Assembly: GCA_017307855.1 (NCBI GenBank)
Contig: JAFKGD010000011.1
Coordinates: forward strand, 62,001-126,000
Direction of reading: 5' to 3'
DNA from: Burkholderiales bacterium
Lineage (GTDB): Bacteria > Pseudomonadota > Gammaproteobacteria > Burkholderiales > Burkholderiaceae_C
Length of the DNA: 64,000 bases
The first letter of the stretch is position 1. Each line of letters opens with the position of its first letter. The translations under genes were made by a program, and so were the position numbers. The notes beneath the pieces were generated by a model. It had not been told where the DNA came from. It searched no databases and saw only the letters and a program-made list of their open reading frames with translations. Below are positions 1,898 to 46,635 of this stretch, one piece after another.

Positions 1898-1902
1898 CGT
1901 GT

Positions 1903-1947
1903 TGGTGCGGCTGGCAGGATTCGAACCCACGACCCCTTGGTTCGTAG
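1903..1947 (-). repeat. attL: 45-bp copy of the tRNA-Arg 3' half
   Basis: Identical to 46559-46603. It spans the tRNA-Arg(ACG) gene from the anticodon loop to the encoded CCA. The flanking bases differ at both ends (T versus G outside, T versus C inside), which defines the core. It is the left boundary of prophage 1. Confidence 0.93.
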
Positions 1948-2116
1948 TTTCCCCGCCGAACGCAAGCTGTTGATTCTATTAGCAACTGGGCCGTCCGTTC
2001 CAACTCATTATGCTCAGTATTGCACTGAACCGAATTCGCGCATCCCCCATAAGTCCCCCAGCGGGCTGATGCCGGCGATCGGCTGAAGTCGTGCTGCACA
2101 ACGCGAGGAGCTGTCA

Positions 2117-2140
2117 GACCTTCTGCTCCGTCAGAAGGTC
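2117..2140 (-). terminator. Stem-loop at the 3' end of the cargo operon
   Basis: A perfect 9-bp inverted repeat (GACCTTCTG, 6-nt loop, CAGAAGGTC) overlaps the stop codon of the last gene of the TIGR04255-type operon. No T run follows on the minus strand, so it may act as an RNA-stabilising or rho-assisted end rather than a strict intrinsic terminator. Confidence 0.45.
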
Positions 2141-2609
2141 AAGCGTGGCACTCGTGGCTCTCGAGCCCGCTACCCGAAAAATGCTGAGCTAGCATATGTC
2201 TCAGTTCAGCTCTGTGCGCTTTCCTCAGCGTATCGGCACCTGCTTGTCTGAAAGAGACATGAGCATGATGAATGCCTTCTGAAGGCACGTGATCGACGGC
2301 AAAACCGTCCCCAACGGCGTTCTTAAGTGCTCGAACATCGCCTGCAGACGCTGAATAGAACCCTTGGTATCTGAAGCCAGCATTGCCTCGATCACGCAAC
2401 GATGATTGACGCGCACAACCGAGAAGATGAACCTCGGCAGGCGTAGCGGCATACTTGCGCCAGACCAATGACTCAGCACCGCTATTCAGCAAGAAAAGAT
2501 TCTGCGCGATAAGTGCCTGCGTCTTTGCGTCCCACATGAAGGGCGCATTGACATGACGCGCAACAAAATTATCGTCAGGGATAACTTCGACGACCGCCTC
2601 GTGGGTCAC
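2139..2609 (-). CDS. Unknown cargo protein, third gene of the TIGR04255-type operon
   Basis: A 156-residue protein of unknown function beginning with GTG, 4 bp after the stop of the preceding gene, so it is probably co-translated. No signal peptide, membrane segment or recognisable catalytic motif is seen. The middle holds a basic stretch (GCARQSSLRDRGNAGFRYQG), and the C-terminal third is rich in histidine (SEGIHHAHVSF, KAHRAELRHML, SHECHA). The local DNA looks less GC-rich than the surrounding phage genes, which suggests a late addition to the prophage. It could be an effector or partner of the TIGR04255-like protein, but nothing in the sequence says which. Confidence 0.6.
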   Translation of the reverse strand: MTHEAVVEVIPDDNFVARHVNAPFMWDAKTQALIAQNLFLLNSGAESLVWRKYAATPAEVHLLGCARQSSLRDRGNAGFRYQGFYSASAGDVRALKNAVGDGFAVDHVPSEGIHHAHVSFRQAGADTLRKAHRAELRHMLAQHFSGSGLESHECHA

Positions 2610-2613
2610 GGAT

Positions 2614-3153
2614 TCAAACGGCGTTGAAAAGGGACTGGAGTTCCGCAGGGAGTCGCCCAGGACGAAACGCCAAATCGTGCAGGTGCACCGCTTGCTTAGT
2701 TCCTGGCGATGCTACTGCGTGCAGATTCCATCCATCGACCACCACAATAACTTCAGTATCCCCTGCTTTCCAGAGCAGCTGAAGCCCTCCTTCACCATCG
2801 GGGGCCATCGTAGGCACGCCGGCATTGGGCGAGAGAAGGTCAAGCAGATGATGAGAGGCCTCACCTGCCTGCTTGGAAATCTTCACGTGAGAAATATTTC
2901 CGGAGTGATCCAACTGGGCCAAGCCACGATGCACGAGAAATTTCACGAGCGCAGTAGCGGCTGGCAAGCCCCGGGTCGGTGAAGGCTCAAGGCGACCCGT
3001 TGTTGACGCTGATCCCGGCGACAAGACTATGTCATCCGAGTAAGACGTAGCTGATGAGCGGCCAACCCGATTCGAGCGGCGCAGCGGCGCCGGGGCATCA
3101 TGTTCAATGCTGTCGAACTCACACGGTTCATAAGTAGCAGAGCTGAAAGTCAT
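2614..3153 (-). CDS. Unknown cargo protein, second gene of the TIGR04255-type operon
   Basis: A 179-residue protein whose ATG overlaps the stop of the upstream gene by 4 bp (ATGA), a sign of translational coupling. The first 60 residues are polar and probably disordered. The C-terminal half holds a region (GGLQLLWKAGDTEVIVVVDG) resembling a small beta-rich domain often found in short proteins of accessory operons. That resemblance is from memory of family patterns and is only suggestive. No membrane segments. Function unknown. Confidence 0.6.
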   Translation of the reverse strand: MTFSSATYEPCEFDSIEHDAPAPLRRSNRVGRSSATSYSDDIVLSPGSASTTGRLEPSPTRGLPAATALVKFLVHRGLAQLDHSGNISHVKISKQAGEASHHLLDLLSPNAGVPTMAPDGEGGLQLLWKAGDTEVIVVVDGWNLHAVASPGTKQAVHLHDLAFRPGRLPAELQSLFNAV

Positions 3154-3968
3154 AGCGACCTCTTCCACAAATGAGTTTGGGCAGCAGCGCTTGTGACGTC
3201 TGCGAACCCATGCGTTACCCAGTCGTGACCAAGCCACTGCCAACGTTTCAGACCTTCATCTGAGCAATCCAGAGGAAGTCCACGCGCAGTGAGTTCAAGA
3301 CGAACCAGTGGTTCACGAGTGGATGTCTTCATCGCCGTCTGCGCCACGACATGAAGGCGACCCTGATCGTCAGGCAGTCGATAGGATGTCTGCCAATTAA
3401 TTCGCTCTGGAAGGGGCAGAAAACGCGAGGAATCCTGATGGACTTGGTGATCCGTCAAAAGCGCCCCCACGTCAAAACCCGTGGCGTGCTCAAGCGCATT
3501 GATGTAGGTAACTTCAGCCTGAAGAATGGTAGGAGCGCCGAGGTCGCCGCTTGCAGCGAAAGCAGCGAACTTCTCCCAGCCGCCCCAGAATCCTTCCATG
3601 ACCGCCTCGAAACCGGGATATACCTCGGCACCGTCTTCAGGCAGACGTCTCCAATTGAAGATGAATCTGTCGTCCTGAAGCTGCGCGAGGAATCTGCCGT
3701 CAGGGGAGATGAACCAGGACCTCCGCAGAGGAGGCATGTCTACAAATTCAGCTCCAAGAACCGGCTGTTGAAACTCACTGAGATTTTCAATGACCGGCGG
3801 CAATGGGGCGACTTCCTGCAACGTCGGGAAGCTGCCGTCGATCTGCCCCCAAAACTTGCCAACGTCAGCTGTGCGCATTGCACGGGGCAAACTGAACGCC
3901 ACTCCACAAACCACCTCCATGACCGGAGGGCTAGCGAATTTCACGCGCGGACGTGCGTCTTGTGACAT
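3150..3968 (-). CDS. TIGR04255-like family protein, first gene of the cargo operon
   Basis: A 272-residue soluble protein with the layout of the sporadically distributed TIGR04255 family: an N-terminal PPVMEVVCGVAFSLP segment, a WGQIDGSFPTLQEVAPLPP segment, a central RSWFISPDGRFLAQLQDDRFIFNWRRL strand pair, and a tyrosine/asparagine region (EVTYINALE). The biochemical role of this family is unknown to me, and its members turn up in accessory and mobile regions. A good ribosome site (GAGGAG) precedes the ATG. It heads a three-gene operon next to attL, the usual place for prophage cargo such as phage-exclusion genes. The upstream region carries three DnaA-box-like sites. Defence is an inference from position only. 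Confidence 0.7.
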   Translation of the reverse strand: MSQDARPRVKFASPPVMEVVCGVAFSLPRAMRTADVGKFWGQIDGSFPTLQEVAPLPPVIENLSEFQQPVLGAEFVDMPPLRRSWFISPDGRFLAQLQDDRFIFNWRRLPEDGAEVYPGFEAVMEGFWGGWEKFAAFAASGDLGAPTILQAEVTYINALEHATGFDVGALLTDHQVHQDSSRFLPLPERINWQTSYRLPDDQGRLHVVAQTAMKTSTREPLVRLELTARGLPLDCSDEGLKRWQWLGHDWVTHGFADVTSAAAQTHLWKRSL

Positions 3969-4008
3969 GGACTCCTCAGATGATCAACAAAGTCTATACA
4001 GCAAATTG

Positions 4009-4049
4009 TGTGGATACTGTGGATAACCTTGCTTTTTTTCTGTGGATAA
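4009..4049. promoter_or_regulatory. Cluster of three DnaA-box-like 9-mers upstream of the cargo operon
   Basis: On the minus strand, TTATCCACA occurs exactly twice (4018-4026 and 4041-4049) and once with a single mismatch (4009-4017, GTATCCACA), all in the same orientation. A T-tract lies between two of them. A weak -10-like TATAGA (minus strand, 3993-3998) sits just downstream, so the boxes cover the -35 and upstream region of the operon starting at 3968. Confidence 0.6.
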
Positions 4050-4265
4050 CCCTAGATTGTAGGGGCTGATCCAAATGCCGCCAGATCCCATTTCCAACGC
4101 CCTTAGCACGTCAGCGAGATTCAGCAGGACTGTGGAATATCGCATCGGCTTCGGCAGGCGTGCTGAGGCAGCACTTTGAAGCGGCACCACCCATACGTTT
4201 CATAGCCCTAGCAGTGCGCAGGCTGCCCCTCTAGATCTGCACCAGCCGACATAATTGCTGCTGCC

Positions 4266-4529
4266 ATGCCTAACACCGTCACATTCATCGAAGAACGCAA
4301 AGTTGGCCACTGGCATCTGAAGTTCTCACACATGAACGACTTCGACGGTGCACCGTTGGGCGTCTTATGCGAACTGAGCAAAGACAGTCAGACATTTGGC
4401 CGTCTTTCCGGTAGCGCAAGCGGTGGCGACGCTCGAGCGATCGAACGCCTATTCACGCGTGCCGAGGAATGGATTCGTGAGTATCAGGAGAGAAAGCATT
4501 CGGGACACGCTGGTTTGGGCGACCTCTGA
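4266..4529 (+). CDS. Small unknown cargo protein
   Basis: An 87-residue soluble protein read toward the Dam-like methylase gene, with which it converges (3-bp gap). It has a beta-like N-terminal half (TVTFIEERKVGHWHLKFSH) and a helical charged C-terminal half (ARAIERLFTRAEEWIREYQE). No clear ribosome site and no family recognised. It could be an isolated cargo gene. Roughly 215 bp between it and the DnaA boxes hold no convincing gene. Confidence 0.45.
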   Translation: MPNTVTFIEERKVGHWHLKFSHMNDFDGAPLGVLCELSKDSQTFGRLSGSASGGDARAIERLFTRAEEWIREYQERKHSGHAGLGDL

Positions 4530-4532
4530 GAT

Positions 4533-5318
4533 TCAGAAAAGGCCCGCAGGCTCGGCATTCCGATCCCACGAGTAGATGATCAGCTCGCCGCGCCGCGCAC
4601 GATCGGCGCCCCCGACTGTGTACTCGATGTCCAAGGTCTCCATCTGGAAGCCATCGAACACCCGGCGGATGTCCGGGTGGTCGTTGATGCTGAGGATCGC
4701 CTTTCCGCGCAGGCCACGCATCAGCTCGGCCATGCGCTCGTACTGGGTGAACTCGAAGACGACCCCGTAGCCTTCGGTCTGCCAGTACGGCGGATCCAGA
4801 TAGAAGAGCGTGTGCGGCCGATCGTAGCGGCCGATGACCTCGTACCAGGGCAACTGCTCGATGAAGGTGCTGGCGAGCCGCAGATGGGCCGCCGAGAGCG
4901 TTTCCTCAAGCCGCAGCAGGTTGATCGCGGGCGTCGTGGTGGCCGTGCCCCACGTCTGCCCCTGAACCTTGCCGCCGAAGCAGTGGTGCTGCAGGTAGAA
5001 GAAGCGCGCGGCACGCTGGATATCGGTGAGCGTCGCCGGCGGCGTGTCCTGCGTCCAGCGGAACACCTCACGGCTGGACAGCGCCCATTTGAACTGGCGC
5101 ACGAACTCTTCGAGGTGGTGCTTGACGACGCGGTAGAGATTCACCAGCTCGCCGTTGATGTCGTTGATGACCTCCACCGCCGCCGGCGGCCGAAGGAAAT
5201 ACAGCGCCGCGCCGCCGGCGAAGACCTCGACGTAGCACTCGTGCGACGGGAAGCGCTGCAGGATGGTGTCCGCGAGGCGGCGCTTGCCGCCGATCCACGG
5301 GATGATGGGTGTTGCCAT
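4533..5318 (-). CDS. D12-class DNA adenine methylase (Dam-like), copy 2
   Basis: N6-adenine DNA methyltransferase of the D12 class, 261 residues. It has the N-terminal PWIGGKRRL segment, the SAM-binding FAGGAALYFLRP motif and the catalytic LFYLDPPYWQ (DPPY) motif around residue 170. It lies downstream of the lysis genes in the cargo zone, after a 138-bp leader with two hairpins, so it may be expressed separately. It differs markedly from the prophage's other D12 enzyme (30310-31170), so the two were probably acquired independently. Likely role: shielding phage DNA from restriction, or marking it. Confidence 0.88.
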   Translation of the reverse strand: MATPIIPWIGGKRRLADTILQRFPSHECYVEVFAGGAALYFLRPPAAVEVINDINGELVNLYRVVKHHLEEFVRQFKWALSSREVFRWTQDTPPATLTDIQRAARFFYLQHHCFGGKVQGQTWGTATTTPAINLLRLEETLSAAHLRLASTFIEQLPWYEVIGRYDRPHTLFYLDPPYWQTEGYGVVFEFTQYERMAELMRGLRGKAILSINDHPDIRRVFDGFQMETLDIEYTVGGADRARRGELIIYSWDRNAEPAGLF

Positions 5319-5346
5319 AGTGGGCTCCAGGGGGTGGTTACACTGC

Positions 5347-5436
5347 CCCCGCCTGTACAGGTGGGCGGGGCCTTGGCTGGGCTCACAGGCGCGTTCTGTG
5401 GGTTCGGTGGCCGTCCGGGGTGTTCCAGCACCCCGG
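5347..5436. promoter_or_regulatory. Two hairpins in the leader of the Dam-like gene
   Basis: Between the lysis genes and the methylase are two stem-loops: 5347-5370 (CCCCGCC / GGCGGGG) and 5415-5436 (CCGGGGTG / CACCCCGG, 6-nt loop). Neither has a proper T run on the minus strand. They could limit read-through from the lysis operon or regulate the methylase. Confidence 0.35.
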
Positions 5437-5456
5437 GCGGTCGCCTCGTTCTTTTT

Positions 5457-6011
5457 TCAGGGGGCCGGCTGACCCCTCACCGTGTAGACGTCTGCACGGC
5501 ACTGGGCATAGGCCTCATTCACTTCGTCGGCTTCACGCAGGAGCCGGTCGAGTAGGTCAGAAAGCTGCAGAGAAAGTAGCCCGCCGGCTTGGGCTGGAGG
5601 GCTTGCACCTTCACCGGTACGGCCGGTGGTTGCGGCTTCGGCGCTACCACCACCGCGCCCACATCCACCGGCTTCTGCGTGAGGGTCGTACAGCCGGCCG
5701 CCATTGCGAAGACGCTCAGCGCGCAGAGCATCCTGAGCATCAGCAAGTTTTTTCTCGTTGTCGACATTCTTCTTCTCCTGAGCTGCGCGCATCTCGCGCA
5801 TGGTTTGTTCGGCCGCGGCAGCGCGTGCCGTCTCGGTGGCGAGCGTGGCTGCGGCATCTAGCTTCTGCCGATCTATCGCGCGCTCGTAGGTGGTGGTGGC
5901 CTCGGCCTTGCCACGGTCGTACTGGCCGGCCCCGTACGAACGAATGGCGAGCAGCGCCCCTGTCATGAGCCCCGCCGCCAGCAACGCACCGACGATGAGT
6001 TCGCGGGCCAC
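5457..6011 (-). CDS. Inner-membrane spanin, Rz-like
   Basis: An i-spanin for the last lysis step, outer-membrane disruption. The 184-residue protein has one N-terminal membrane segment (LIVGALLAAGLMTGALLAI) followed by a long alanine/glutamate-rich coiled coil (about residues 35-110), the classical Rz plan. It starts 2 bp after the holin-transglycosylase gene. A second gene in a different frame (Rz1, 5519-5767) lies wholly inside it. Rz is recognised by architecture because this family diverges strongly. Confidence 0.82.
   Translation of the reverse strand: MARELIVGALLAAGLMTGALLAIRSYGAGQYDRGKAEATTTYERAIDRQKLDAAATLATETARAAAAEQTMREMRAAQEKKNVDNEKKLADAQDALRAERLRNGGRLYDPHAEAGGCGRGGGSAEAATTGRTGEGASPPAQAGGLLSLQLSDLLDRLLREADEVNEAYAQCRADVYTVRGQPAP
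5519..5767 (-). CDS. Outer-membrane spanin lipoprotein Rz1, nested in Rz
   Basis: An 82-residue lipoprotein encoded in an alternative frame completely inside the Rz gene. It has a basic N-terminus, a hydrophobic stretch and a lipobox (VFAMAAGC) that predicts lipid attachment to the cysteine. A proline-rich mature part follows (VVAPKPQPPAVPVKVQALQP), as in known o-spanins. A ribosome site (AGGAG) lies about 7 nt upstream of the chosen ATG; a later in-frame ATG at 5740 is possible. It should pair with Rz across the periplasm to fuse the inner and outer membranes. Confidence 0.8.
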   Translation of the reverse strand: MSTTRKNLLMLRMLCALSVFAMAAGCTTLTQKPVDVGAVVVAPKPQPPAVPVKVQALQPKPAGYFLCSFLTYSTGSCVKPTK

Positions 6012-6013
6012 GG

Positions 6014-6967
6014 CTACACCCCCAGCCAGGCGAGATACTTCCCGCGCCTGGGCGCCAACGGCACCGTGCTGGCGACGTGCTCACGGTTGATGTCGAACGC
6101 GCTCTGTCCATACCCCTGCCACTTCGTCCGGCTCTTGCTGCTGGTGTGCTCGACGTGCCCAAACCACTGCCCGGCGTCGCAACCAGGCTTCAGAGCGCAC
6201 AGTCGACGGTCCTGCTGCAGCCCACCCCACCCGCCGTTGTAGGCAGCGTCACAGAAGGCCACGCGGACGAGGGGCTCGAAGCTGCCGAGCCGCTTCAACC
6301 GGTCGTCGCAGTCTTCCAGCTTCACCAGGATCGCGCGGATCCCGAGATCCGCACGGATGTACACCGACGTCCAGTTCAGCTCGGCGAGATCTTGCGGAGC
6401 CATTGCGCGGGTCTCGGCCAGCGCGTCGAATCGCAGCGCTCCGTCCGCGGTCCACGCTCGCGTGATCTGGCCGAGCCCGGCGCCTTCCTCGCGACTGGTC
6501 TTCAGCCGCGCCGACGTGCTCCAGCAGCTGCGGTGCGTGAGGGTGATGCACGTCTCCTTCTCGATCAGCGCGCCGATGTAGCTGCGCCGCGGGATCTCCG
6601 GCCATCGGCGCTCGATCTCGTCCACCACCAGGGGCGCGAGCGTCTTCGCCGGCGCTGGAACATCTGCACGCGCGAAGCCCACCAGACCGATGAATAGCGC
6701 CGCGCTCACGAGGCAGAGCCCCAGGAACGCCAAGCCAGCGCCGATCGGATGCTCCAAGGCCTTGAGCCAGGCTTCACGTCCGTGCGCGTAGTCAAACATG
6801 GCTTTGCGGCCGGAATGCGCCAGCGCGACACACAGCGCCGACCAGGACAGCCAGATCAGTCGCACCAGCGGCTCACGCCAGCCGTCGGGGCCGAAGCTGT
6901 TGACAGCGATCACGAGCAGCGGCAGGGCCAGTACGGCCCACCAGCGCCAACGCTTGAGGGGATTCAT
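6014..6967 (-). CDS. Holin-like membrane domain fused to an SLT-type transglycosylase
   Basis: Lysis protein of 317 residues. The first 100 residues hold about three hydrophobic segments (WWAVLALPLLVIAVNSF, WLSWSALCVALAHSG, GAGLAFLGLCLVSAALFIGL) like the putative holins of Burkholderiales phages. The remainder resembles a lysozyme-fold transglycosylase (IEKETCITLTHRSCW, then REEGAGLGQITRAW, with a plausible catalytic Glu in IEKET and the GLGQIT signature). In related phages these are normally two adjacent genes. Here one frame reads through, so either a true fusion or a repaired frame joins them. It degrades peptidoglycan, probably while membrane-anchored. Confidence 0.75.
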   Translation of the reverse strand: MNPLKRWRWWAVLALPLLVIAVNSFGPDGWREPLVRLIWLSWSALCVALAHSGRKAMFDYAHGREAWLKALEHPIGAGLAFLGLCLVSAALFIGLVGFARADVPAPAKTLAPLVVDEIERRWPEIPRRSYIGALIEKETCITLTHRSCWSTSARLKTSREEGAGLGQITRAWTADGALRFDALAETRAMAPQDLAELNWTSVYIRADLGIRAILVKLEDCDDRLKRLGSFEPLVRVAFCDAAYNGGWGGLQQDRRLCALKPGCDAGQWFGHVEHTSSKSRTKWQGYGQSAFDINREHVASTVPLAPRRGKYLAWLGV

Positions 6968-7041
6968 AGGATGCTCCAGGTTGAGGACGAAGAACGGCCC
7001 GCCGCGTCGCCGCGGCGGGCCAATGAAATGGCGAAACGGAT

Positions 7042-7272
7042 CTAGACCTCGATGTCTTCGAACGGCAGCACCGGTGCCGGCCCCTCGATCACGCCGTTGC
7101 GGACGAACACGCGGTCGCCCGTCGACACGTCGGCGCCTCGTACCCGCTGCTCGCCACCACCAGGAAACGTGACGGTGATGGATCCGTCGAGGTTGAGCGT
7201 GGAGACATCGCCCACCAGCAGCGGCGCCTCCGGCAAGATCTCGCGCAACGCGCGGTAGAGGTTCGTGGTCAC
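7042..7272 (-). CDS. Small tail-tip protein
   Basis: A 76-residue protein starting with GTG, overlapping the stop of the preceding tail gene by 4 bp (GTGA), so translationally coupled. The sequence is beta-rich (STLNLDGSITVTFPGGGEQR, DRVFVRNGVIEG), suggesting a small OB- or SH3-like fold. It sits between the large hub-like tail protein and the lysis cassette. No function beyond tail assembly can be assigned. Confidence 0.65.
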   Translation of the reverse strand: MTTNLYRALREILPEAPLLVGDVSTLNLDGSITVTFPGGGEQRVRGADVSTGDRVFVRNGVIEGPAPVLPFEDIEV

Positions 7273-9092
7273 AGGTGGCGCTCCAACGTGAAGTTCTGTC
7301 GCGCTTTCGGCGCCTGGTAGCTGACGCTCACGGAGCGCACGACGCCGCGCCACGGGGAAGGCGCATTGATCTCGACCAGCTGGTCGACGTCGAGCACCCC
7401 CGGCTGTCCCGGGCCGGTGAGCACCGGCGCCTGCAGTCGCACCGTGTGCTTGGCGCCGGCCGCACCCAGCACCGACAACCCACGCTGCCGCGCCGCCACG
7501 ACGTGCGTGTTGAGCGCATCGGTCACCATCGACGCCTGCTTGTCTGCGGCAGTTCCAGCTCGGCGCACGCGGGCCAAGATGCCCTGGTTCACACCGCTGA
7601 CGTGAACGGCGTTGATGTCTGGCCCGTCGGTGCGCTCGATGCCGAGCGTGATCAGAGCGTCCTCAGAGATCACAACCGCGGGGGTTTCAGCCCCCCACAG
7701 CCAGGGAGCCACGGAATACGGGTGGCGAACCAATAGGGTGGCCGCGCTGCGGTGACTGAGAACATGGCCGCCGGCGGCCTCAGCGACGGCCTGGACCGCC
7801 GCCAGCGGCGTGCCCGCGAAGCTCCAGGCCCCGGCCGGCACCAGCCAGTCATCAATGTCCCAATCTAGCCCCACGCCGGTCGACGCCAGCGCCGCCTCGG
7901 CCAGCTGCTGGGCGGTGCGGGCCTCCGCGTTGTTCCAGTTACCTGCGCGAGTCCAAGGGGCGCCGAGCAGCGCGGTGTTGCTGCGACCGGTGATCGAAAC
8001 ACGCCGGCGAGCGAAAGAAACGTCGCGGCGTAGCCCCTCAATCGCAAACACCCACTCCATGCCATCGAGATCGAGCAGGATGGACGTGGGCAGGCCGGAC
8101 GAGGGTGCCAGCAGCGAGAACAGCTCGTCGGGGCCCGTGGCTTGAAGGCTCCAGGCGAACGAACCACGGTCGGCAGACATCGTGACGTCGAGCAGGGTGA
8201 TCGGCGCCATATCGGGCAACCGCCAGGCGGTGATTTCGTGCGATGACATGTAGAACCTCGCGGGAAGAATGACGAGCTGCCCGCCGGGATCCGGACCCAG
8301 GCAGTCATCACCGAACACCAGGACATAGGGCGCAACCATCGGCGGGCATGCGAACACCAGGTGCGCCTCGTGATAAACGGGATCGCCCGGATCGATCGGC
8401 GGCACAACCCGCTGCGTCGACGGCGCGTAGCGGCCCAGGCCCCAGGGCACGGCGTGCCATTGGCGCCCGATCCGGACGAACGACGGCCGGAAGCCGCCAA
8501 GCCATGCGCGGCCGACCCGCCCGGCCAGTTGCCATCCGCCACCGCGCTGCTGCCGCAGATTCGTGCCACGCTGGAAGCTGAAGTCGTACTGCGCGCGCTC
8601 GGCGCTGGCCAGCTGCCAGCTGCCGCCGCGATGAGGGCGGTGGGACGTCCCCACCTGGAACGATGACTGTCCCTGGACTGACCGGTCACCGGTGCCCAAC
8701 TGCCACCGCTGGGCAGTACGCTGCATCTGCGGGGTGCCCGGCGCGAATCCCGCCCCTTGGTCGCGCCCCGCGCGCGCTGCCCGCGACCAGGGCGTAGCAA
8801 TGGCAGGGTGCGTCTTCTGACCGCGATCCCAGCCGGCCGAACCACCCCCTGCAGCTCGATCGCCCACCTGGAAGCCATCGGGAACGCGCACCTCGCGGTA
8901 GCGGGTCACCCGGTTGTCGTACAGCACGGCACCGTGCATCCAAGGTGCGGCCACCAACAGCAGCCGCGCGCTCACCGTGACCGGATCGATGACCGGTGTA
9001 TCGGTCTCGCCGAAGACCAGCTCGGCCGGCCCCTCGGGCGTCGGTACGCCCTCGAAGAGCAGCTCGACGTTGAGCGCGTCCACTTCCTCCAT
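7269..9092 (-). CDS. Tail-tip / baseplate hub-like protein
   Basis: A 607-residue structural protein. The C-terminal half (about 290-607) looks like a hub domain: a beta-rich stretch with FSLLAPSSGLPTSILLDLDG, then AAVQAVAEAAGGHVLSHRS, a pattern seen in baseplate hub proteins, and ends in SVSYQAPKARQNFTLERHL. The N-terminal half contains an unusual low-complexity region (about 110-190) with degenerate W-Q-L and F-Q-x-G-T repeats rich in Gln, Gly and Arg. It is tightly coupled to the genes on both sides. It presumably contributes to the tail tip and cell-envelope penetration. Confidence 0.6.
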   Translation of the reverse strand: MEEVDALNVELLFEGVPTPEGPAELVFGETDTPVIDPVTVSARLLLVAAPWMHGAVLYDNRVTRYREVRVPDGFQVGDRAAGGGSAGWDRGQKTHPAIATPWSRAARAGRDQGAGFAPGTPQMQRTAQRWQLGTGDRSVQGQSSFQVGTSHRPHRGGSWQLASAERAQYDFSFQRGTNLRQQRGGGWQLAGRVGRAWLGGFRPSFVRIGRQWHAVPWGLGRYAPSTQRVVPPIDPGDPVYHEAHLVFACPPMVAPYVLVFGDDCLGPDPGGQLVILPARFYMSSHEITAWRLPDMAPITLLDVTMSADRGSFAWSLQATGPDELFSLLAPSSGLPTSILLDLDGMEWVFAIEGLRRDVSFARRRVSITGRSNTALLGAPWTRAGNWNNAEARTAQQLAEAALASTGVGLDWDIDDWLVPAGAWSFAGTPLAAVQAVAEAAGGHVLSHRSAATLLVRHPYSVAPWLWGAETPAVVISEDALITLGIERTDGPDINAVHVSGVNQGILARVRRAGTAADKQASMVTDALNTHVVAARQRGLSVLGAAGAKHTVRLQAPVLTGPGQPGVLDVDQLVEINAPSPWRGVVRSVSVSYQAPKARQNFTLERHL

Positions 9093-45465: not shown

Positions 45466-46520
45466 TCAAGCAGCTGGCGGCGCGGCGCGCCGTCGTGCTG
45501 CATGGGGAGCGGGCCGAACGCACCTTCGACGAGGTTGCCGCGCACTACCTGGTCAGTCACCAGGACAAGCCATCGCTGGAAACCGAAACGTTCCTGCTCA
45601 AGTCCATCATGTCGCACATCGGATCACTGCCGCTGCACCAGGTGCACGACTCAACGCTGGCGCCTTACATCACGGAACGTCTGGCGAAGGGCCGTTCGCA
45701 CAAGACGGTGAACCTTGCACTCGGCGTGGTGCGGCGCATCCTCAATCTCGCTGCCTCCAGCTGGCGCGATGAGCAGGGGCGCACGTGGCTCCCTCAGGCA
45801 CCGACGATCACGTTGTTGCCGCTGGTGGGGCATCAGCGCGAGCCGAGGCCCATCTCGTGGCACCAGCAGCGGGCGCTTCTACCGAAGCTGCCGGATCACC
45901 TTGCCCGCATGTCGCTGTTCGTTCTGAACACCGGCGTGCGTGACAACGTGGTCTGCAGCCTGAGGTGGGAGTGGGAGATCAAGGTTCCACAGCTCGGGAT
46001 CTCGGTCTTCGAGGTGCCTGCAGAGCATGTGAAGGGCCGCAGGCGGTCGAGGATCGTGGTGTGCAACAGCGTCGCCCAGTCGGTGATCGAGTCCGTGCGC
46101 GGCCAGCATGTGGACTTCGTCTTCGTCTGGCGACGCGAGCGGAAGAAGAACCTCGATCGGGCACCTGCGATGGAGTACCGACCGCAGCTCACCATGAACA
46201 ACACCGCCTGGCAGAACGGCCGCAAGGCCGCAAGCCTGGGCGACCTGCATGTTCATGATCTGCGGCACACGGTCGGCATGCGGCTGCGCGAAGCGGGAGT
46301 GACCGAGAGCACGATCAGCGACATCCTGTGGCACACCAGCCCGTCGATGACGCGTCACTACAGCGTGGCGCAGATCGTCGAGCTGCATGCGGCCCTGGAA
46401 CTGATCAAGGCCGACAGCGGCCGGTGGAACCTGAGCCTGGCTTCCCTCAGGCTCGAACAAGAGGCGGCGCGGGGGACGACGAGTCCCCCAAAAGTCACCC
46501 AGGAAAGAAAAACGGCCTAG
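45336..46520 (+). CDS. Tyrosine-type phage integrase
   Basis: A 394-residue site-specific recombinase that inserts the phage at tRNA-Arg(ACG). The catalytic arginine lies in NTGVRDNVVCSLRW, the HxxR box in HDLRHTVGMRLREAGV, and the tyrosine in WHTSPSMTRHYS. The N-terminal arm-binding region (QVDRQWKKTRLRQRGFTSYE) and core-binding helices precede it. The start at MGQKSMSG was chosen because AGGAAGG lies 7 nt upstream. Its stop codon lies in the terminator at 46511-46541, 38 bp from attR, typical of intact integrated prophages. Confidence 0.95.
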   Translation: MGQKSMSGIYADNNATWQVDRQWKKTRLRQRGFTSYEEAEGWLIKQLAARRAVVLHGERAERTFDEVAAHYLVSHQDKPSLETETFLLKSIMSHIGSLPLHQVHDSTLAPYITERLAKGRSHKTVNLALGVVRRILNLAASSWRDEQGRTWLPQAPTITLLPLVGHQREPRPISWHQQRALLPKLPDHLARMSLFVLNTGVRDNVVCSLRWEWEIKVPQLGISVFEVPAEHVKGRRRSRIVVCNSVAQSVIESVRGQHVDFVFVWRRERKKNLDRAPAMEYRPQLTMNNTAWQNGRKAASLGDLHVHDLRHTVGMRLREAGVTESTISDILWHTSPSMTRHYSVAQIVELHAALELIKADSGRWNLSLASLRLEQEAARGTTSPPKVTQERKTA

Positions 46521-46558: not shown

Positions 46559-46603
46559 TGGTGCGGCTGGCAGGATTCGAACCCACGACCCCTTGGTTCG
46601 TAG
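46559..46603 (-). repeat. attR: 45-bp direct repeat
   Basis: Identical copy of 1903-1947, forming the 3' part of the intact tRNA-Arg gene. Right boundary of prophage 1. Confidence 0.93.
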
Positions 46604-46635
46604 CCAAGTACTCTATCCAACTGAGCTACAGCCGC
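46559..46635 (-). tRNA. tRNA-Arg(ACG), rebuilt at attR
   Basis: A full cloverleaf: acceptor GCGGCTG / CAGCCGC, D-arm GCTC...GAGT, anticodon stem-loop CTTGG-CTACGAA-CCAAG (anticodon ACG), variable loop, T-arm with TTCGAAT, discriminator A and an encoded CCA. The 5' half is host DNA, and the 3' half from the anticodon loop comes from the phage attP. A -10-like TACAAT lies about 10 bp upstream on the minus strand. Confidence 0.96.

Follow-up and report, generated by a model that had tools for sequence, protein, structure and literature searches.

A TIGR04255-led gene trio at a prophage end, a candidate three-part toxin-antitoxin-like module

The A-B-C trio and the closest described systems

Two described systems come closest to the genes considered here. 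PDC-M32 is a candidate pair of PADLOC, and a Sinorhizobium prophage with matches to both of its proteins, PDC-M32A and PDC-M32B, is termed a hypothetical defence system (PMC12429752). CmdTAC combines a toxin, an antitoxin and a chaperone; a capsid protein displaces the antitoxin from the chaperone by competition, after which the antitoxin is broken down and the ADP-ribosyltransferase (ART) toxin CmdT is set free (PMC11618068). We examined a stretch of 64,000 nucleotides from a Burkholderiales bacterium (forward strand; base 1 is position 62001 of contig JAFKGD010000011.1, assembly GCA_017307855.1), below called the window; the genus contains this one genome only. Three genes at the end of a prophage in the window, here named A, B and C, may form a three-part toxin-antitoxin-like module, most likely for abortive anti-phage defence or competitor exclusion, a reading that we favour tentatively.

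3150..3968, minus strand: gene A, 272 amino acids (aa), ATG start, TIGR04255 family; proposed sensor or control subunit
2614..3153, minus strand: gene B, 179 aa counted from the ATG that overlaps the A stop; proposed neutraliser or adaptor
2139..2609, minus strand: gene C, 156 aa, GTG start; proposed effector of ART fold

Four aligned A proteins served as the query for a scan of named genomes, from which the best 80 of 119 relatives were kept; trios were called with hidden Markov models (HMMs) grown from the neighbors of A, and duplicate loci of one place (L001, L036, L002, L003, L128) were removed from the tallies. A, B and C are adjacent and in order at 74 of the 80 loci, the others having A and B (three), A and C (one) or A alone (two); as the set was picked by similarity to A, it overstates the share with the full trio. 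The association is not chance, and the co-occurrence in other genomes that the original prediction proposed to look for is borne out. In the phylum sample 30 of 398 genomes, that of the window among them, encode TIGR04255. From the others one locus per genome was retrieved, leaving aside the second matches of two genomes; B is present at 13 of these 29 (10 A-B-C, one A-B and two B-C). All three loci found in viral contigs carry the trio, the same three being recovered with alignments A1 and A3 and none with the window A protein alone. No A relative was found at E ≤ 1e-5 in 50,697 phage records. Plasmids yielded one, in Mycobacterium paragordonae, where the next two small genes score as B and C by HMM. 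At L135:5977-7716, on a Mycobacterium plasmid, an A-B-C trio directly follows a MobF relaxase gene.

Distribution is sporadic, as the original prediction supposed: at E ≤ 1e-3, A turns up in 6 of the order's 399 genomes, one of them that of the window, and in three of the other five the match is full-length (3 of 398 other genomes). A quick tree of A mixes phyla yet is partly clustered by phylum, with 24 label changes over 11 phylum groups (minimum 10, shuffled mean 45.9), and places window A beside L037 with support 91. Distance matrices of A, B and C correlate over 89 loci (rho 0.61–0.71, host relatedness included; 200 permutations gave at most 0.23).

The C-terminal end of PDC-M32A is a B-type domain: its last ~110 profile positions are matched at 1e-11 to 1e-12 by the B proteins of L069, L115 and L058, all typical of the family (L115: E 1.7e-12, positions 257–368 of 375); the B of L054 gives no such match. 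Residues 98–139 of window B align with positions 290–331 of the 375 (E 0.002), and the leave-out family HMM finds this protein at 1.6e-4, with an hhalign probability of 94; an NCBIfam match of it is at chance level (E 0.063). PDC-M32B is a C-type protein: PADLOC calls the C-like proteins of L121 and L122 PDC-M32B (3.6e-56 and 7.3e-49), and a C HMM trained without L120–L122 and without the window finds the C-like protein at 2.1e-10 (L122), 1.6e-9 (L121) and 1.9e-8 (L120). In these three loci the PDC-M32A gene comes directly after an apparent (by eye) type I DNA methylase subunit and is followed by the C-like protein. Because PDC-M32A shares the B core and PDC-M32B is found by the C HMM, the B-C pair would work behind two or more kinds of first domain. 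The arrangements differ in that PDC-M32A has the B core fused behind another N-terminal domain, whereas in the trio TIGR04255 has a gene of its own, in first place; window B, with 179 aa and matching positions 290–331 alone, lacks that fusion. PDC-M32A itself was found in 10 of 398 genomes.

By sequence, then, window B and C appear to be distant relatives of PDC-M32A and PDC-M32B. The profile searches called for in the original prediction lead in this way to a candidate defence pair, and its term "undescribed" is too strong for B-C, PDC-M32 being a candidate already. Likeness to phage structural proteins, which it had counted against itself, was not found (nothing in PHROGs at E ≤ 1), and neither B nor C has a family match in Pfam or PHROGs at E ≤ 1. 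In the B family alignment the N-terminal ~60 columns vary and are frequently absent, and the C-terminal core is better conserved; such an N-terminus suits a labile neutraliser and proves nothing. An Acetobacter plasmid (L132:5932-7237) has a gene with two B cores and then an SspB-family protein (PF04386, 2.5e-11) at the expected position of C. The idea taken from this annotation, that C is an SspB-type ClpXP adaptor, was rejected (hhalign probability 0.1).

Window A belongs to TIGR04255, as originally assigned, at 42.1 bits against a curated cut-off of 30 (E 8.9e-11, profile 1–244 of 252). It also has a sub-threshold match to DUF1525 (E 0.091), and PADLOC gives none at E ≤ 1. The predicted fold (predicted local distance difference test score, pLDDT, 92) resembles guanidino-kinase catalytic domains over model residues about 5–267, the 50 structure matches listed including guanidino kinases, SerRS and TBP. 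Sequence searches of PDB gave nothing at E ≤ 1 with alignment A1 and five matches with A3, the best (E 0.019) being a designed protein. A and C were compared and show no kinship. TIGR04255 as a text string was not found in the literature searched.

The C family, and TIGR04255 beside other partners

The third protein of the C family probably has an ART fold. A typical relative, the 136-aa C of L058, has a confident predicted structure (pLDDT 96) whose best matches are KptA/Tpt1, HopF2-type AvrPphF ORF2, Tse2 and DarT, with TreTu also present; VIA-align rows 1–21 are what we take to be ART entries. Foldseek alone finds nothing for this protein at E ≤ 0.001, and a PDB sequence search with the C profile (alignment A2) gave two chance-level matches only (E 0.37 and 1). 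The likeness to KptA/Tpt1 and to the ART toxins DarT, Tse2 and TreTu is one of fold, with no sequence similarity seen. KptA/Tpt1 is a two-lobed protein of ~180 aa, of which C aligns with residues about 81–182 alone, the other lobe being absent. ART catalytic sets are of the R-S-E or H-Y-E type; the C family instead has R-S-H, with R in 66, S in 71 and H in 71 of 71 proteins. The earlier statement that no enzymatic motif is visible is superseded by this fold.

Most of the remaining TIGR04255 loci of the phylum sample have other second and third genes. Their third proteins fall by eye into three groups (L010, L013, L018, L020 and L035; L011, L014, L022 and L026, plus L039 of the named set; L008 and L009). 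The HMM of each group recovers its own members only, hhalign shows no link between the first two, and those third proteins that were scanned match no Pfam family. Those of L007 and L027 are C-like by eye, and L015, L023 and L028 were placed in no group. At L012:1483-2858 TIGR04255 is followed by a 95-aa gene and, in third place, a PemK/MazF toxin (1.1e-18). Some of the other trios have a middle gene of helix-turn-helix type. The frame after the L012 toxin has a weak DUF1156 match.

A broader proposal, which we put forward as doubtful, would see in TIGR04255, with its guanidino-kinase-like fold, the control subunit shared by a large and so far unrecognised class of three-part toxin systems whose neutraliser and toxin genes are interchangeable; the window version, carrying an R-S-H ART toxin, would unite the class with PDC-M32. 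More generally, the analysis of the trio offers a testable role for a family carried by 30 of the 398 genomes of the phylum sample. It ties that family to a candidate defence pair that others had defined, and it suggests to which class of enzymes the third protein belongs. Should C prove to be an ADP-ribosyltransferase toxin, PDC-M32 and the A-B-C trios would form a single system defined by its mechanism, and the remaining TIGR04255 trios would hold candidate new toxins.

Proposed action and rival explanations

What is supported is a list of parts: the operon, its position beside the attachment site, the A-B-C order, the C-family fold with its conserved residues and the kinship of B and C to PDC-M32A/B are computed. 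From these parts we infer every step of the action: that C is toxic and uses NAD, that B neutralises it, that A senses and that the module defends. C would be an ART-fold effector with a conserved Arg-Ser-His set which, once freed, would modify a target in the cell (nucleic acid or protein) using NAD+ and halt growth. B would use its conserved C-terminal core to hold C in check, and the variable N-terminus of B would render this protein prone to loss. A, of guanidino-kinase-like fold, could serve as a sensor or clamp, keeping the B-C complex stable until a product of infection is bound. This is the logic of CmdTAC with different parts: A would sense, B restrain and C act, again in three genes with an ART-type effector. 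The parts appear to differ in that the CmdTAC chaperone is SecB-related (PMC11618068), whereas the matches listed for A are guanidino kinases, SerRS and TBP. SecB is missing among the matches listed for A, and CmdT among those listed for C, listings that exclude nothing.

The weak link is the membership of window C in the C family. Several results weigh against the toxin-antitoxin-like reading at this point: the leave-out HMM with default filters, which finds window A at 1.1e-69 along with window B, misses both window C and its nearest relative, the C of L037; the hhalign probability for the link is only 7.4%; and a whole-genome search with the C alignment, of low sensitivity, finds 8 of 398 genomes and misses the window's own. 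The surroundings of the trios add to these points. We took 124 of 132 nearest open reading frames (ORFs) of 110–900 aa beside 77 trios, eight having been set aside in advance; integrases are the commonest Pfam family (5/124), the 25 of 120 families listed are mostly single metabolic or housekeeping ones, and PADLOC matches reach a top count of 2/124 among the 25 of 53 families listed, an uncontrolled count. There is no strong defence-island signal, and the co-occurrence with defence islands that had been suggested as a check did not emerge clearly.

Window C is nevertheless a probable, if divergent, member of the C family. With filters off (hmmsearch --max) it is found at E 0.015 among 9348 ORFs, and the pair of window and L037 C proteins aligns with the family by hhalign at a score of 21.6 (E 0.0048), colinear over 91 columns, against a maximum of 15.25 in 60 column shuffles. 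PADLOC gives it no PDC-M32B match at E ≤ 1. Two points speak for taking it as a C: R18, S47, R93 and H115 align with the conserved residues of the family, and the gene comes third after A and B, just as in related loci. For window C itself, an ART fold would be derived from L058 C through this weak profile link. Because of the low hhalign probability and the missed genome, our overall confidence is kept on the cautious side.

An ordinary chromosomal function, regulatory or metabolic and not defensive, would agree with the metabolic and housekeeping neighbors listed (25 of 120 families) and with the partial clustering of the A tree by phylum (24 changes, shuffled mean 45.9), but we consider it unlikely given the sporadic occurrence (6/399 genomes of the order at E ≤ 1e-3 and 30/398 of the phylum sample, the window's own in both) and the TIGR04255 loci with different second and third genes. 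If C were a KptA/Tpt1-like protein that processes RNA 2′-phosphates or binds RNA, the module would be an RNA repair or counter-defence unit instead of a toxin system. This is quite unlikely: the C of L058 has 136 aa against 177–180, covers residues ~81–182 alone without the other lobe, and is matched by the toxin ARTs Tse2, DarT and TreTu too, and another TIGR04255 trio has a MazF-type toxin third.

We think no better of superinfection-exclusion or lysogenic-conversion cargo whose action is binding and whose C has an ART fold without catalytic activity. The prophage-end position, a trio on a plasmid and the integrases among the neighbors (5/124) would suit such cargo, but S and H are invariant in 71 of 71 C proteins, which fits catalysis, and A relatives are absent from the 50,697 phage records (E ≤ 1e-5) and present at only three viral-contig loci. 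Finally, A might have guanidino (protein-arginine) kinase activity and, upon infection, tag B for degradation. Its predicted fold is similar to that of McsB and the phosphagen kinases, but the signature motifs of guanidino/phosphagen kinases occur in none of 77 A proteins, and we hold this to be very improbable.

Prophage setting and upstream region

1903..1947: attL, exact 45-bp copy of the tRNA-Arg 3′ end (blastn 45/45)
46559..46603: attR, inside tRNA-Arg 46559–46635, minus strand
45903..46364, plus strand: tyrosine-recombinase (Phage_integrase) domain at the other prophage end (PF00589, E 1.8e-14; contig 107903–108364)
4018–4026 and 4041–4049, minus strand: two exact DnaA-box-type 9-mers, 58 and 81 bp upstream of A and 23 bp apart

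The trio lies ~190 bp inside the prophage end, the att repeats being 44.7 kb apart. The coordinates agree with a minus-strand operon of three coupled genes, with a 4-bp overlap of the A stop and B start (3150–3153) and a 4-bp gap between B and C (2610–2613); its placement beside attL is confirmed by the tRNA-Arg repeat and the integrase at the far end. The GC content is lower than in the surroundings, as had been claimed (0.558 at 2001–3000 and 0.557 at 3001–4000, against 0.64–0.69 in most 1-kb windows of 5001–46000). The claim of transcription apart from phage genes was not upheld. The ORFs of 4533–9092, which precede the trio across a ~565-bp gap, are on the same strand, and the one at 7269–9092 matches tail proteins in 33 phage records; a sigma-70 scan of the trio strand over 1900–5400 found no site and no separate promoter for A.

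TTWTNCACA occurs in the window only as the two boxes upstream of A (0.56 expected; 10 of 100 shuffles reach two). A role as conserved operator was rejected: 98 upstream stretches hold three boxes (1.1 expected), two being the window's own and the other at L105. An 87-aa ORF on the plus strand (4266–4529) lies between A and its neighbouring ORF and is divergent from A.
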